From positions 2,356,001 to 2,420,000 of the forward strand of contig NZ_CP036346.1 in the NCBI RefSeq assembly GCF_014131695.1: a stretch of DNA of 64,000 bases. The letters run 5' to 3'. Below are positions 16,047-60,056 of the stretch, in pieces; position 1 is the first letter of the stretch, and each line of letters starts with the position of its first letter. The stretch is from Thomasclavelia ramosa DSM 1402. Its GTDB lineage: Bacteria; Bacillota_I; Bacilli_A; Erysipelotrichales; Coprobacillaceae. The position numbers and the translations under genes are program-made. Under the pieces are notes generated by a model that made no database searches, was not told the DNA's origin, and saw only the letters and a list, made by a program, of their open reading frames with translations.

Positions 16047-16073
16047 GACTACCAAATGGTAGTCCTTTTTTTA
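16045..16073 (+). terminator. Terminator of the VanZ operon
   Basis: Stem AGGACTACC / GGTAGTCCT overlapping the stop codon, followed by seven T. Confidence 0.92.
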
Positions 16074-16895
16074 TAATTCCCGTTTTTCTTTAACTCCGTA
16101 TTTTAAATGATACAGGGCTTCTAAAACCTCAAAAATATAGGTTATTGAAAATTTACCAATCAGTGAATGATGATCTGTTCCAACCTTTAAGATCATATCG
16201 ATACTATCACTATAAACAAATTCATCCAATTGAGAAATAACAATCTTATAGGCCGGACTCTTAGAAATTACTCGCATAACATCTGGATGATCAGTCATAA
16301 ATCCTCCTGCAATACTTGAAACAATAATTACATCATTTTCATCTAATCCTTCTACCGTCAAAATTTGCTGTTCTAAAGGATACATCCCACTACATTCTTT
16401 ACCCAAATATGATAGTTCAATCTGTAATTGCATCGATACTGATTGAGTAAAAAAGTTTCCAGCAAAACAAACCTTATTTGCATCATGAATTTTATCGACA
16501 ATAAATTCCAGGTCTTCATAAGATACACTCTCGTATGTTTCTTTTAAATTATCTAAAATATTATCAAAATGAGCTTTAAACACTTCTTTACCTTTATGTA
16601 AATACTGCCTTTGGGGCAACTGATGATCAAACTGTAATCTGAGTGTATCGCGATTAAAATAATTTAAATTCATGGTAATATCCATTTTAAAATCAGCAAA
16701 TGATTCATAATTTAGTTTTCTGCATAATCGGGAAATCGTTGCTGTTGAAACAAAACAAAGCTCTGCTACATCAGTTATTGTACTTCCCGGAATCACATAG
16801 ATATTTTGAAGAATTTTTCTTGCTGCATTAGCATAAACATCATTTATGCTCGTTGTATTAATAAAATTAACTAAATTATAAAAAGCTCCGCGCAT
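16071..16895 (-). CDS. RpiR/MurR-family regulator, paired with phosphatase (copy 1)
   Basis: The 274-residue protein has an RpiR-type helix-turn-helix at residues about 1-75 (ITDVAELCFVSTATISRLCR) and a SIS sugar-phosphate isomerase-like domain from about 125 to 250 (IVDKIHDANKVCFAGNFFTQ, DVIIVSSIAGG). The usual glycine/serine sugar-phosphate loop is altered (AGNFFTQS), so its ligand may differ from that of classical members. It starts three bases after the upstream phosphatase gene. The same gene order recurs at 28.6-30.1 kb. Confidence 0.88.
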   Translation of the reverse strand: MRGAFYNLVNFINTTSINDVYANAARKILQNIYVIPGSTITDVAELCFVSTATISRLCRKLNYESFADFKMDITMNLNYFNRDTLRLQFDHQLPQRQYLHKGKEVFKAHFDNILDNLKETYESVSYEDLEFIVDKIHDANKVCFAGNFFTQSVSMQLQIELSYLGKECSGMYPLEQQILTVEGLDENDVIIVSSIAGGFMTDHPDVMRVISKSPAYKIVISQLDEFVYSDSIDMILKVGTDHHSLIGKFSITYIFEVLEALYHLKYGVKEKREL

Positions 16896-16898
16896 TCC

Positions 16899-17645
16899 CT
16901 ACTCCTCCTTATTAACAATAATAATTTTGCCATCATCTAGGCATAAACAATTTAACTGTCCAATCACACCACAAGCCAAACCACCATCAATTCCAATTTT
17001 ATTTTGATGGACATCATCAACCCAAATATCAAAACTCCGATCCTTGTTTAACATCGCTGTTGGAGTATGACCAAAAATATAAATCTTTGTCAAATCACCT
17101 CGTGCATGATAAAAATCATCTCGAATCCATAAAAGAGAATTTAATTTTTGTTCTTTTAGTGGATAACGAACATCGATTCCAGCATGAACTAACACATATT
17201 TTTGTTGATTTACCTCAATTTCTAAATAATTAGGAAGATTAATCAAATATTCATACAGACTTTTAAAAAAAGCTGTCCGGATAACACGATAATCTTCATA
17301 TCTAAATTTATCTTTTTGAAGATATTCACGAATATTTCTCATCGTTGTATCACCACCATTGGCTAACCATAATTTTAACGCCCGTGAAGGATAATCAAAA
17401 TCATCATAATAAACTCCATAATATAAAGCTTCTTGCCACATGTATTCATGATTTCCTTTTATTAAAATAATATTATTATGATCTTGAATATAAAATAATA
17501 TTTTTAGACTGTCAGGTCCACGATCACAAATATCACCAATTATATATAAAATATCATTTTCACTAAATGATATCGTTTCTAGTAATTTTATCAATAAGTC
17601 AAAGTGACCATGTAGATCACTGATGACATAAGTTTTACCCGTCAT
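16899..17645 (-). CDS. PPP-family metallophosphatase (copy 1)
   Basis: A 248-residue calcineurin-like phosphatase with the two-metal motifs DLHGH, GDICDRG and GNHEYM in the first 80 residues and the later histidines in HAGID and GHTPTAM. It resembles lambda-type Ser/Thr phosphatases and diadenosine tetraphosphatases; the true substrate cannot be read from sequence. The frame is open to 17681, but the ATG at 17645 follows AGGTGAT and gives exactly the same length as its paralogue at 29389. The first gene of a two-gene unit with an RpiR regulator. Confidence 0.88.
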   Translation of the reverse strand: MTGKTYVISDLHGHFDLLIKLLETISFSENDILYIIGDICDRGPDSLKILFYIQDHNNIILIKGNHEYMWQEALYYGVYYDDFDYPSRALKLWLANGGDTTMRNIREYLQKDKFRYEDYRVIRTAFFKSLYEYLINLPNYLEIEVNQQKYVLVHAGIDVRYPLKEQKLNSLLWIRDDFYHARGDLTKIYIFGHTPTAMLNKDRSFDIWVDDVHQNKIGIDGGLACGVIGQLNCLCLDDGKIIIVNKEE

Positions 17646-17702
17646 TTTATCACCTAATCTTATCATATCATACTTTAGCATTAAAATATCACTTGATTTA
17701 TT

Positions 17703-17784: not shown

Positions 17785-18429
17785 ATGGTCGACGAATTCT
17801 ATTTGGACGTTAATCTTGAATTGTTTGTACAATGGTTATTTGGAAATAAAAATAAGTATGATCATAATATACTATGTACATTAAAAAGCAATGAACCTTA
17901 CGGGAAAACTATCACTTTTAATTATTATAATATTAGTGGTTCAATTGTTATTTGGGCTAATGGTATCATTGAAGAACAAATCTTTGATGATGAAGAAAAT
18001 TTATTATTCTATCTTCATTACAAACTCGTTAGTTTAGCTCAAGGACAAAAATTATTTTACGACTTCTACGATTCATTGACCAAACATACAAAATGTCCCC
18101 CACTTAAAATAATTTTATGTTGCTCAGGCGGTTTATCATCATCATTCTTTGCAAATAAGCTAGCTGAACTAATCTCCTTAAAACACCTTAATTATGAAAT
18201 TATTCCTCTTGGCTTCTATCAGTTAAATAGTAGTTATTTGGACTGTGATGCAATTTACCTAGCACCACAAATTTCATACTTAGAACCACAGGCAATGAAT
18301 ATTGTTAAAAATACCGTGCCAGTACACTGTGTTACACCAAGTGTTTATGCAACATACAATTATCGTGGGTTATTAGATATGATTACAAATGAAAATATAT
18401 CTAAAACCAAAGAAAACGGAACTATTTAG
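17785..18429 (+). CDS. Orphan PTS EIIB-like protein with unrecognised N-terminal domain (copy 1)
   Basis: The 214-residue protein ends in a lactose/cellobiose-type EIIB fold: strand LKIILCC, phospho-cysteine loop CSGGLSSS (Cys113), helix FFANKLAELI, and LAPQISYLEPQA, which matches the conserved GPQ segment of EIIB. Residues 1-105 form a domain I do not recognise (motifs IVIWANGIIEEQ and LFYLHYKL). No EIIC or EIIA lies beside it; it is divergent from the phosphatase-RpiR unit. AAGGAGGGG precedes the ATG. A paralogue with both domains is at 59313. A phosphorylation-dependent signalling role is inference. Confidence 0.8.
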   Translation: MVDEFYLDVNLELFVQWLFGNKNKYDHNILCTLKSNEPYGKTITFNYYNISGSIVIWANGIIEEQIFDDEENLLFYLHYKLVSLAQGQKLFYDFYDSLTKHTKCPPLKIILCCSGGLSSSFFANKLAELISLKHLNYEIIPLGFYQLNSSYLDCDAIYLAPQISYLEPQAMNIVKNTVPVHCVTPSVYATYNYRGLLDMITNENISKTKENGTI

Positions 18430-57896: not shown

Positions 57897-58247
57897 TTAT
57901 TGATACTTACTATCAATCATATCAATAAAACATTCTAAAGCACCAATCTCATCATTAAAATAATATAAACTTAAGATATCTTGTTTTGAATAATGATTTT
58001 TAATGAATCGATAAAAAACATCCCGCTTGTATGGAGGTAATAAATTTATATCCAAATGCTGCTCATCAACAAATTTTTCTACTTGTTCCATCATTAAATC
58101 ATATTCATCAATCAAACAATCCTGCCCATAATTTCGTGCCATGTATTCAGCATAACCTAAAAATAGTTGTTTAAACCTTTCACCATCAATATTTTTAATA
58201 TATTCCTTTAAACACATGACCAATAATTGTATATCTTTTTCTGACAT
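57897..58247 (-). CDS. Hypothetical helical protein
   Basis: A 116-residue acidic, mostly helical protein (MSEKDIQLLVMCLKEYIK, LLPPYKRDVFYRFIK). I do not recognise the family. It lies downstream of the ROK gene on the same strand, but a terminator at 58271 separates them. The frame is complete; no strong Shine-Dalgarno is evident (GGTGATAAG). Confidence 0.55.
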   Translation of the reverse strand: MSEKDIQLLVMCLKEYIKNIDGERFKQLFLGYAEYMARNYGQDCLIDEYDLMMEQVEKFVDEQHLDINLLPPYKRDVFYRFIKNHYSKQDILSLYYFNDEIGALECFIDMIDSKYQ

Positions 58248-58270: not shown

Positions 58271-58300
58271 CAAGAAAAGCATCTTTTATTATAGATGCTT
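58271..58300 (-). terminator. Terminator of the EIIB-like/ROK operon
   Basis: Stem AAGCATCT / AGATGCTT then TTTCTTG on the minus strand, overlapping the ROK stop. Confidence 0.75.
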
Positions 58301-59309
58301 AAATAATCGATTGTTTTTTTATGACAAGATTTGTTTTTAAAGAATCTTTACAAATCAGTTGTAAACCAATTAAAATATACTCACTTAAATTAGTTACTTT
58401 TTTTATCTTAGGAAGATATTTAGCCGGAACCATCTGTTTCAATGTTTCATCTAAATCACTAGCACGCTCAAGATTAGTACAACTAATAGCTACGATTTCG
58501 GGATTTACGATCGCGGTTAAACAAATTACAATCTTACTCAACAATTCAATCGTTCCGTGGGGAGACTGAAGCAATTTCAATTGATCATCTTGACTCAAGG
58601 GTAAATATTGTATCTCACCAGCACAATTAGTTTTACCTGTTACAAGTTGACCGTTAATTACTGTTCCAACACCACCATACCCTTCACCTGGTTGAAATAA
58701 CAGACAGACATTTTCATAATTTTTTTCTGCTAGATAAAAACCAATTACTGCTGTATTTACATCATTACCCAATATGATCACTTGACTATATTTATTGGTT
58801 AGTAATGAATATAAATCAATATCATTAAAATTTGTTAATCCAGTTGAAGTAACTCGCCCATCATTAATAATCCCTGGCATACTTATTCCAATAACTTTTA
58901 TATTATCAAACTTAGCTAAAACGATGTTAATAATATCATAAATATCATTAACTTTAACTTCCTTTTTGATTACTTCATCACTAAAAACTATTTCATCTGC
59001 CAGATTATAAACCCGATAAATCAAGTGTACCCGCCGGTATTCTTTATTAACCGAAATCGTTAGCATCCGAGAATAATCGCTATTCAAAGAATAAACAACA
59101 CTCTTTCTTCCTCCCGTCGATTCTAACTCACCATCTTTTAATACTTCATTACTTGCCAGCAATTCCTTTAAAATATTTGTAATTGTAGCTAAACTTAGCC
59201 CAGTCGCTAAAGCTAATTGATTTTTAGTACAAGTTTCTTGCTCCATAAAAATATCCATGACTTTATCCCGATTTATTTGTCGTAGATTTTTAGTATTACT
59301 GATATTCAT
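58299..59309 (-). CDS. ROK-family transcriptional regulator (NagC/XylR type)
   Basis: The 336-residue protein has an N-terminal winged helix (KNQLALATGLSLATITNILK, STGGRKSVVYSL) and a ROK sugar-kinase-like domain (VIGISMPGIINDG, IILGNDVNTAVIGFYL, GEGYGGVGTVINGQLVTG, CAGEIQYLP). The usual zinc-site CxCGxxGC is absent (NCAGEIQY then SPHGTIE), so this member may lack the metal site. It follows the EIIB-like orphan after three bases and probably regulates that operon. Confidence 0.9.
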   Translation of the reverse strand: MNISNTKNLRQINRDKVMDIFMEQETCTKNQLALATGLSLATITNILKELLASNEVLKDGELESTGGRKSVVYSLNSDYSRMLTISVNKEYRRVHLIYRVYNLADEIVFSDEVIKKEVKVNDIYDIINIVLAKFDNIKVIGISMPGIINDGRVTSTGLTNFNDIDLYSLLTNKYSQVIILGNDVNTAVIGFYLAEKNYENVCLLFQPGEGYGGVGTVINGQLVTGKTNCAGEIQYLPLSQDDQLKLLQSPHGTIELLSKIVICLTAIVNPEIVAISCTNLERASDLDETLKQMVPAKYLPKIKKVTNLSEYILIGLQLICKDSLKTNLVIKKQSII

Positions 59310-59312
59310 AGG

Positions 59313-59930
59313 TTATTTTTCCTCCTTGTTTTGATACCAATCATAAATGATTTTTAATGCTCCTGAATAATCATTTGTTGCAAAAATGCGTGTTGGTATC
59401 GTTACTACCTCTTTATCTGGCAAACGTCGCTTAGCTTGTGGCAGCATATAAGCAACTTGCGGTGCAATTAAAATAATATCATAATCATTAGCAATCTCAA
59501 ATAAGCGTGAATATCCTGTTGCAAAAATCTCATATGATAGATTTTCCAATTTTGCCAGCTCTTGCATTTTACTTGCAAATAAAGTTGTTGTCAGACCACC
59601 GCTACAGCATAATAAAACTCTTATTTGCGGCCGATTAGTTGCTTCTAATGCACAATTAATCATTTCTTTAAACAACTCCACTGCATGATTAAAATGTGTT
59701 AATTGAAAATGAAGATAAAAGATTTTTTCCTTTGTTTGACGATCATTTAACTCTTCCTCAAAAATTCCCTTGCCATAATAAATTATTTTCCCAATTACTA
59801 TTTCATTACTGATGATGATCGTATTATTATCATTGTCATCAACTTTGATATTTAAACTATAATGATTGTTTTGCATTAATATCCATTTTAAATAAATCGA
59901 TGCATTGATTCCCTGCAAGAACTCATCCAT
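59313..59930 (-). CDS. Orphan PTS EIIB-like protein with unrecognised N-terminal domain (copy 2)
   Basis: The 205-residue paralogue of the protein at 17785. Its N-terminal domain (1-100) shares IIYYGKGIFEEELN and FYLHFQL with the first copy, and the C-terminal EIIB fold has VLLCCSGGLTTTLFASKM (phospho-cysteine candidate Cys109) and LIAPQVAYMLPQAK. A longer frame to 60005 runs through the promoter and operator and has no start site support; the ATG at 59930 has GGGGAGGTG. No EIIA or EIIC is adjacent; a ROK regulator follows. Confidence 0.8.
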   Translation of the reverse strand: MDEFLQGINASIYLKWILMQNNHYSLNIKVDDNDNNTIIISNEIVIGKIIYYGKGIFEEELNDRQTKEKIFYLHFQLTHFNHAVELFKEMINCALEATNRPQIRVLLCCSGGLTTTLFASKMQELAKLENLSYEIFATGYSRLFEIANDYDIILIAPQVAYMLPQAKRRLPDKEVVTIPTRIFATNDYSGALKIIYDWYQNKEEK

Positions 59931-59948
59931 TATGAGCACCTCCCCTAA

Positions 59949-59971
59949 CTTATGACAAGTATTGTCATAAG
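59949..59971. promoter_or_regulatory. Operator palindrome at the start of the EIIB-like/ROK operon
   Basis: A perfect palindrome with ten-base arms CTTATGACAA / TTGTCATAAG and a three-base centre sits one base after the -10, covering the start site. The ROK protein encoded in the operon is the likely binder. Confidence 0.75.
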
Positions 59972-59972
59972 T

Positions 59973-60001
59973 ATTATAATATATTTTGTATCCGTTTACA
60001 A
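59973..60001 (-). promoter_or_regulatory. Promoter of the EIIB-like/ROK operon
   Basis: TTGTAA (59996-60001), 17-base spacer, TATAAT (59973-59978) on the minus strand. Confidence 0.75.
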
Positions 60002-60026
60002 TCAATCTATTAAGTTAATAAAACAG

Positions 60027-60056
60027 GCACTAATTTTGTTAATAAAACTAGCGCCT
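60027..60056 (-). terminator. Probable terminator of the cyclase operon
   Basis: An imperfect stem GGC-CTA-TTTT / AAAA-TAG-GCC downstream of the MarR pseudogene on the minus strand; the T run is weak. Confidence 0.5.

Follow-up and report, generated by a model that had tools for sequence, protein, structure and literature searches.

We find that a PTS EIIB-like unit with an additional N-terminal domain (N-domain) is coupled to a ROK protein, either through a neighbouring gene or through fusion into one polypeptide, and this coupling is well supported. The unit was studied from a 64,000-nucleotide stretch of the Thomasclavelia ramosa DSM 1402 genome, hereafter the window, and in particular from the protein encoded at positions 59313..59930 of its minus strand. 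With moderate confidence, drawing on sequence comparison and on analogy, we propose that this protein may act as the phosphate-sensing component of a two-part regulator, in which PTS phosphate carried on the EIIB cysteine would control the ROK partner.

A three-gene cassette with an EIIB-like and a ROK gene

The host genome consists of one contig of 3.25 Mb, and the cassette is read from the minus strand of the window. Its first gene (59313..59930) is an ORF for a 205-residue protein that opens with an ATG at 59930, downstream of the Shine-Dalgarno-like AGGGGAGG. The second gene (58299..59309, minus strand) starts 3 bp past the stop codon of the first and encodes a 336-residue protein with an HTH and a degenerate ROK domain. 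The third (57897..58247, minus strand) encodes a 116-residue protein with no Pfam match; across 98 genomes searched in all, it was found in nine of nine genomes of the same genus and in none of the others. This small gene stays 3' of the EIIB-like gene even in loci without the ROK gene (L134-L136).

A paralogue is encoded in the window at 17785-18429 (plus strand, 214 residues); it has no adjacent ROK gene and is placed in clade A of the EIIB tree. The two window proteins are alike over their full length, far beyond chance (E 5.7e-32 over residues 1-197), and we could confirm in both the motifs from which the original prediction had derived their kinship: GIFEEEL and GIIEEQI near residue 58, and FYLHFQL and FYLHYKL at residues 71-77, along with CCSGGL and APQ in the window proteins. 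The prediction was also right that EIIA and EIIC genes are absent beside either copy and that an HTH-ROK gene adjoins the copy at 59313. It had described this copy as the second member of a pair, which understates the family: the host genome holds eight N-domain-EIIB paralogues. Three of them, 464-468 aa long, end in a ROK domain (Pfam ROK 2e-11 to 9e-14), and the other five are short.

The region in front of the cassette (all features on the minus strand) contains several elements of possible regulatory significance. A terminator-like hairpin (60025..60056; consensus match only) parts the cassette from the upstream genes, and a promoter-like sequence TTGTAA-17-TATAAT (59973..60001; consensus match only) lies 5' of the cassette. 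An operator-like palindrome, TGTAAACGGATACA, is positioned over the -35 box (59987..60000). Between the promoter and the start codon there is a dyad with 11-bp arms, ACTTATGACAATACTTGTCATAAGT (59948..59972), which is not conserved in orthologues. The palindrome recurs at the matching place in L131 and L133, both of which have the ROK gene; it is absent from the ROK-less orthologues L134-L136 and from L132, where the EIIB-like gene closely follows another gene. With only two exact copies in the genome, i.e. one beyond this cassette, TGTAAACGGATACA is ruled out as an abundant genome-wide site. It also fits the CcpA cre consensus and could be either a candidate ROK operator or a candidate CcpA catabolite-repression site. 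Upstream of the ROK-less orthologue, L134 (3614-5467) and L136 (3824-5677) encode a protein that by eye resembles a Firmicute fructose-1,6-bisphosphatase.

Split pairs and fusions among the relatives

The nearest named relatives are Thomasclavelia and Erysipelatoclostridium strains. A search across genomes recovered a family much wider than a pair: all 43 genomes searched in the host's family, from 20 of 20 genera, carry the N-domain-EIIB unit, mostly within ORFs of 460-490 aa that end in a ROK domain. Full-length matches were also obtained in part of a second family of the order, where the weaker matches, near 1e-17, are likely plain EIIB proteins. Of the 122 distinct members, 90 counted as fusions and the remaining 32 as short copies. 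The scan of named genomes yielded 79 loci, nearly all of them fusions, including some in Hungatella-like and Selenomonadaceae assemblies. An N-domain-only search found no N-domain outside the order in 392 sampled genomes of the phylum. The copies in Hungatella-like and Selenomonadaceae assemblies therefore appear to have arrived by transfer, or in some MAGs may reflect errors of binning. The fused copies in these assemblies, some of which are MAGs, are L168, L172, L174, L176, L177, L182, L183, L185, L201 and L206. We found no description of a ROK-EIIB fusion in the open-access literature.

The split arrangement, in which the two genes lie close together or overlap, recurs in Erysipelatoclostridium An173, other Thomasclavelia, Kandleria vitulina, Eggerthia catenaformis and one further Erysipelotrichaceae genome. 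The EIIB tree gathers the fused copies in a block (100/100 branch) located beside the split clades and away from the ROK-free clade that includes the copy at 17785. Four short copies fall inside this block, and at least one of them is a broken fusion. The ROK tree likewise unites the fused domains in one group (99/99), next to which the split partners are placed. Outside the fused and split ROKs lie three HTH-ROKs from the host genome that come without an EIIB. Because kinases make up the outer group of the ROK tree, possession of the HTH appears to be the ancestral state, which the fusions later lost.

Two loci with apparently damaged copies were noted in addition. At L075:8455-9860 a fused gene seems to be interrupted where the EIIB part gives way to the ROK part, and intact relatives of it exist. 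In the host genome, weak EIIB-like fragments (E 0.1-9) at C1:580066-580287 lie about 2 kb before an HTH-ROK gene at C1:582236; to judge by these matches, the two are possibly a decayed split pair.

An EIIB domain with few transporter neighbours

The C-terminal part of the window protein (residues 101-205; 59316..59630, minus strand) is an EIIB domain of the cellobiose/chitobiose type, as had been predicted. Pfam PTS_IIB (PF02302) covers residues 104-187 with 43 bits, above the curated cut-off of 23.6, and in the AlphaFold2 model of the protein (mean pLDDT 93.1) residues 102-204 match EIIB-cellobiose 1iib with Z 18.6 and an rmsd of 1.3 over 103/103 residues. Cys109, the second cysteine of CCSGGL in the loop CCSGGLTT (codon 59606-59604, minus strand), aligns with the phospho-cysteine of EIIB, and the APQ segment corresponds to residues 156-158 of the domain. 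Both Cys109 and Gly112 are found in 68 of 68 members, and Thr114/Thr115 in 67 of 68. Lactose/cellobiose-type EIIA proteins are encoded in the host genome.

The surroundings of the fused copies are diverse. Among the 142 genes within two places of them, the commonest Pfam families (rRNA methylase, RpiR/SIS regulators, GH1 and EIIB) are represented by 3-5 genes each in raw counts, and EIIC by at most two. The fused genes are thus scattered orphans, and homologues were not found regularly beside EIIC, in agreement with the original prediction. Short copies of clade A adjoin a metallophosphoesterase and RpiR-like regulators. The combination of metallophosphoesterase and RpiR-like regulator is a recurrent three-gene setting that occurs with short copies in Thomasclavelia and with a fused copy in Hungatella-like genomes (window 16071-17681; L174:4407-5928; L182:4355-5928). 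In six genera (L055, L056, L057, L058, L059 and L060), the fused gene is followed on its 3' side by a gene for a 142-aa P-loop protein with weak AAA matches only, which we take to be BrxF-like.

The neighbourhoods bear on whether the window protein could be a working transport EIIB, a soluble protein that serves EIICs from other loci in trans, the ROK being merely co-transcribed or regulating the EIIB gene. Its cysteine and phosphate loop are intact, and relatives at L017, L018, L019 and L063 have further EIIB genes or a PTS operon as neighbours, as would suit such a role. However, EIIC neighbours are rare, most relatives carry the N-domain-EIIB unit joined to a non-kinase ROK, and the extra conserved N-domain would be superfluous for transport, so that we regard a transport function as rather unlikely.

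The EIIB fold is also similar to that of low-molecular-weight phosphatases, for example YwlE (Z about 8-9), and a histidine of the N-domain, His74 (codon 59711-59709, minus strand), is as invariant as Cys109, being present in 68 of 68 members. These features could be accommodated if EIIB and ROK cooperate in response to a signal other than PTS phosphate, with the protein sensing redox state or a phospho-ligand through its cysteine. The sequence is nevertheless plainly that of a lactose/cellobiose EIIB, and the best structural match is EIIB-cellobiose, with the Z of 18.6; we think a signal of this other kind unlikely.

A ROK partner without kinase motifs

Several Thomasclavelia genomes retain the EIIB-like gene without an adjacent ROK, and in two of these, G035 and G042, no ROK of the window subfamily was found. 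In these two genomes the EIIB-like protein may therefore do a job that does not involve ROK. The missing ROK beside the orthologue in several genomes of the genus is what would be expected if the neighbourhood had no functional meaning, the members of the split pair being co-transcribed and their proteins independent. Yet close or overlapping pairs recur in several genera, and exactly these two parts have been fused, which makes a neighbourhood without function quite improbable in our judgement. About 30 of the 43 genomes also carry a separate HTH-ROK of the window ROK's subfamily; these separate proteins are possible partners for the HTH-less fusions.

The window ROK protein matches PF00480 at 1.9e-12, and its best sequence match among solved structures is the Listeria repressor Lmo0178 (9e-13), with an alignment that extends from residue 5 through the HTH. 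Its HTH is recognised by HTH_24 at 0.0019 with 18.2 bits, below the cut-off of 21.9 for that family. In a motif check, the zinc motif CxCGxxGC, DxGGT and GEIGH were found in 0 of 63 fused and 0 of 7 split ROKs, and the alignment shows that the zinc segment is missing altogether. Most canonical ROKs of the same genome retain at least one of the three motifs. Their loss suggests that the ROK domain is probably not a kinase. The Asp of NDxN is kept in most fused and split ROKs.

The AlphaFold2 model of a fused protein (mean pLDDT 90.3) has three confidently modelled domains: the N-domain, the EIIB domain and, after a linker of about 20 residues with the lowest confidence, the ROK domain from residue 223. 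No HTH was recognised in this model. The ROK part is similar to ROK kinases and repressors with Z up to 23.6, and to Mlc in its EIIB complex (3bp8) with Z 18.7. The widely kept catalytic Asp of NDxN and the Cys-phosphate donor in the same chain could point to an enzyme, whose ROK part would phosphorylate a sugar with EIIB as the donor in place of ATP. This is very unlikely in view of the absence of the phosphate-1 motif DxGGT, of GEIGH and of the zinc motif from 63/63 fused copies, and of the HTH that the split ROKs possess.

A TriTu-like N-terminal domain

The N-domain (residues 1-98; 59637..59930, minus strand) has an alpha-beta5-alpha order in the window model, with a helix at residues 3-18, five strands and a helix at 80-98. 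Its match to the TriTu immunity protein 7zhm_C has Z 8.7 and an rmsd of 2.6 over 82/87 residues, which is near the level of common arrangements, and Foldseek reports the similarity with probability 1.00 and E 2e-3. Pfam TriTu (PF24689) matches 8 of 68 members at E <= 0.5 (best 7.2e-5); the window protein, at 14.7 bits, is below the Pfam cut-off of 27. The predicted TriTu likeness, a fold match accompanied by weak sequence support, is modest but consistent.

According to the original prediction the N-terminal domain was new. It is indeed neither EIIA nor PRD: no Pfam match to either was found in the singly scanned proteins, nor among the 25 commonest families across 68 members. Its standing as a new fold is weakened by the TriTu-like match, in a comparison that covered Foldseek-found domains and leaves other relatives possible. 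Designed PPR proteins, met when the N-domain profile was compared with PDB sequences, matched over a short helical stretch only and were judged a compositional chance. Ig_NUP210_4th and similar Pfam matches were seen in a single member, were absent from others, and were dropped.

The phylum-wide N-domain search showed that the domain is nearly always linked to EIIB. A viral antitoxin has been noted as broadly sharing the TriTu fold (PMC12487901), which fits a general binding fold, and the N-domain is probably a protein-interaction module. That it retains a TriTu-like immunity or antitoxin role, in protection from an ADP-ribosylating toxin or in a toxin-antitoxin pair, as the fold (Z 8.7) and the weak Pfam TriTu matches might hint, is scarcely credible when no ADP-ribosyltransferase family appears in the neighbour Pfam results (for the fused copies, the 25 commonest families listed), the TriTu match of the window protein is below the cut-off, and the domain hardly ever occurs apart from EIIB.

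A proposed PTS-responsive regulator

Our preference for a two-part regulator comes from the fusion, the recurrent split pairs, the agreement of the EIIB and ROK trees, the invariant Cys109 with its nearly invariant phosphate loop, the EIIA in the genome, the rarity of EIIC, the lost ROK motifs, the fused model with its resemblance to Mlc in 3bp8, and the precedent of Mlc itself. Against it count the ROK-less Thomasclavelia orthologues, the ROK-less copies of clade A, a fused form without a recognised DNA-binding domain, the differing fold of EIIB-Glc, and a palindrome that could instead serve CcpA. The original prediction had tied an orphan EIIB to a ROK regulator, and this tie has gained from the fusion in most relatives and from the co-directional split pairs in several genera; that the protein reads the state of the PTS is a step that we infer.

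We also infer the phosphorylation, the EIIB-ROK contact, the DNA target, the N-domain function and the output of the fused form. Under the proposed mechanism, a lactose/cellobiose-type EIIA encoded elsewhere in the genome would transfer phosphate onto Cys109. The EIIB domain would keep this phosphate from sugar and EIIC, and would instead control the ROK protein encoded directly behind it. The contact between EIIB and ROK would depend on the phosphorylation state, comparable to that of dephosphorylated EIIB-Glc and Mlc in E. coli, and the HTH-ROK would bind or leave its operator, for which the palindrome that overlaps its own promoter is a candidate. Most relatives have both halves merged into one polypeptide, with loss of the HTH, and this fused form could exert its effect by associating with ROKs of the same subfamily that do bear an HTH.

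A further-reaching proposal, which we offer tentatively and consider doubtful, is that the fused proteins constitute an undescribed class of one-polypeptide PTS signal transducers, built of a TriTu-like N-domain, EIIB and a non-catalytic ROK, which have multiplied within the genomes of gut Erysipelotrichales to many copies each and are also found in Hungatella-like and Selenomonadaceae assemblies. Such proteins would sense EIIA-dependent phosphorylation and would trap or release HTH-bearing ROKs of the same subfamily, giving a ROK signalling network without sugar ligands.

It is already known that PTS flux is conveyed to transcription via PRD regulators and via Mlc with EIIB-Glc, and EIIB-ROK control has so far been tied to a membrane transporter. 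If the two-part regulator is real, the dedicated soluble EIIB beside or fused to a motif-less ROK would mean that control of ROK by EIIB has evolved into a module in its own right. Gut Erysipelotrichales, some of which have eight or more copies, would then possess a hitherto unseen layer of carbohydrate regulation. The split and fused forms provide natural test pairs.

Comparison with known systems

Each part of the system has known counterparts. The lactose/cellobiose PTS EIIB (ChbB/CelA, 1iib) has the same fold and phosphate loop as the window EIIB; in contrast to it, the window family adds the N-domain, usually has no nearby EIIC and fuses to ROK. The TriTu immunity protein (7zhm_C, PF24689) resembles the modelled N-domain in fold and gives weak profile matches, but the N-domain has no visible toxin partner and forms part of EIIB proteins and of EIIB-ROK fusions. 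ROK repressors and kinases (Lmo0178 5f7p, NagC, Mlc) are related through the PF00480 match, and the split form has the same HTH-ROK layout. Unlike them, the ROKs described here have lost the zinc motif, DxGGT and GEIGH, and the fused forms have the EIIB unit in place of the HTH.

PRD regulators of the MtlR, CelR and LicR type possess an EIIB-like domain, EIIB-Gat-like, with a conserved cysteine that is used in regulation rather than transport. They combine HTH, PRD and often EIIA in one chain, whereas the window family has no PRD or EIIA and its partner is a ROK. EIIB-like domains in PRD regulators have been described (PMC11537053, PMC3478281), and they serve in these proteins as phospho-switches (PMC11537053).

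In the Mlc and EIIB-Glc system of E. coli (PDB 3bp8), a ROK is governed by a PTS EIIB domain, Mlc works without a small inducer, and the ROK fold matches. EIIB-Glc is part of a membrane transporter, whereas the EIIB studied here is soluble, of the cellobiose type, equipped with the N-domain, and encoded next to the ROK or in one chain with it. Mlc retains its HTH, whereas the fused form has none. The fold of EIIB-Glc differs from that of cellobiose-type EIIB, and the Mlc contact therefore cannot be copied to the window EIIB. Dephosphorylated EIICB-Glc binds and sequesters Mlc, taking it off its operator (PMC3901232). As far as tested, the system in Thomasclavelia and its relatives appears to be a variant of PTS-ROK control rather than a new kind, with a fused form that could be more.
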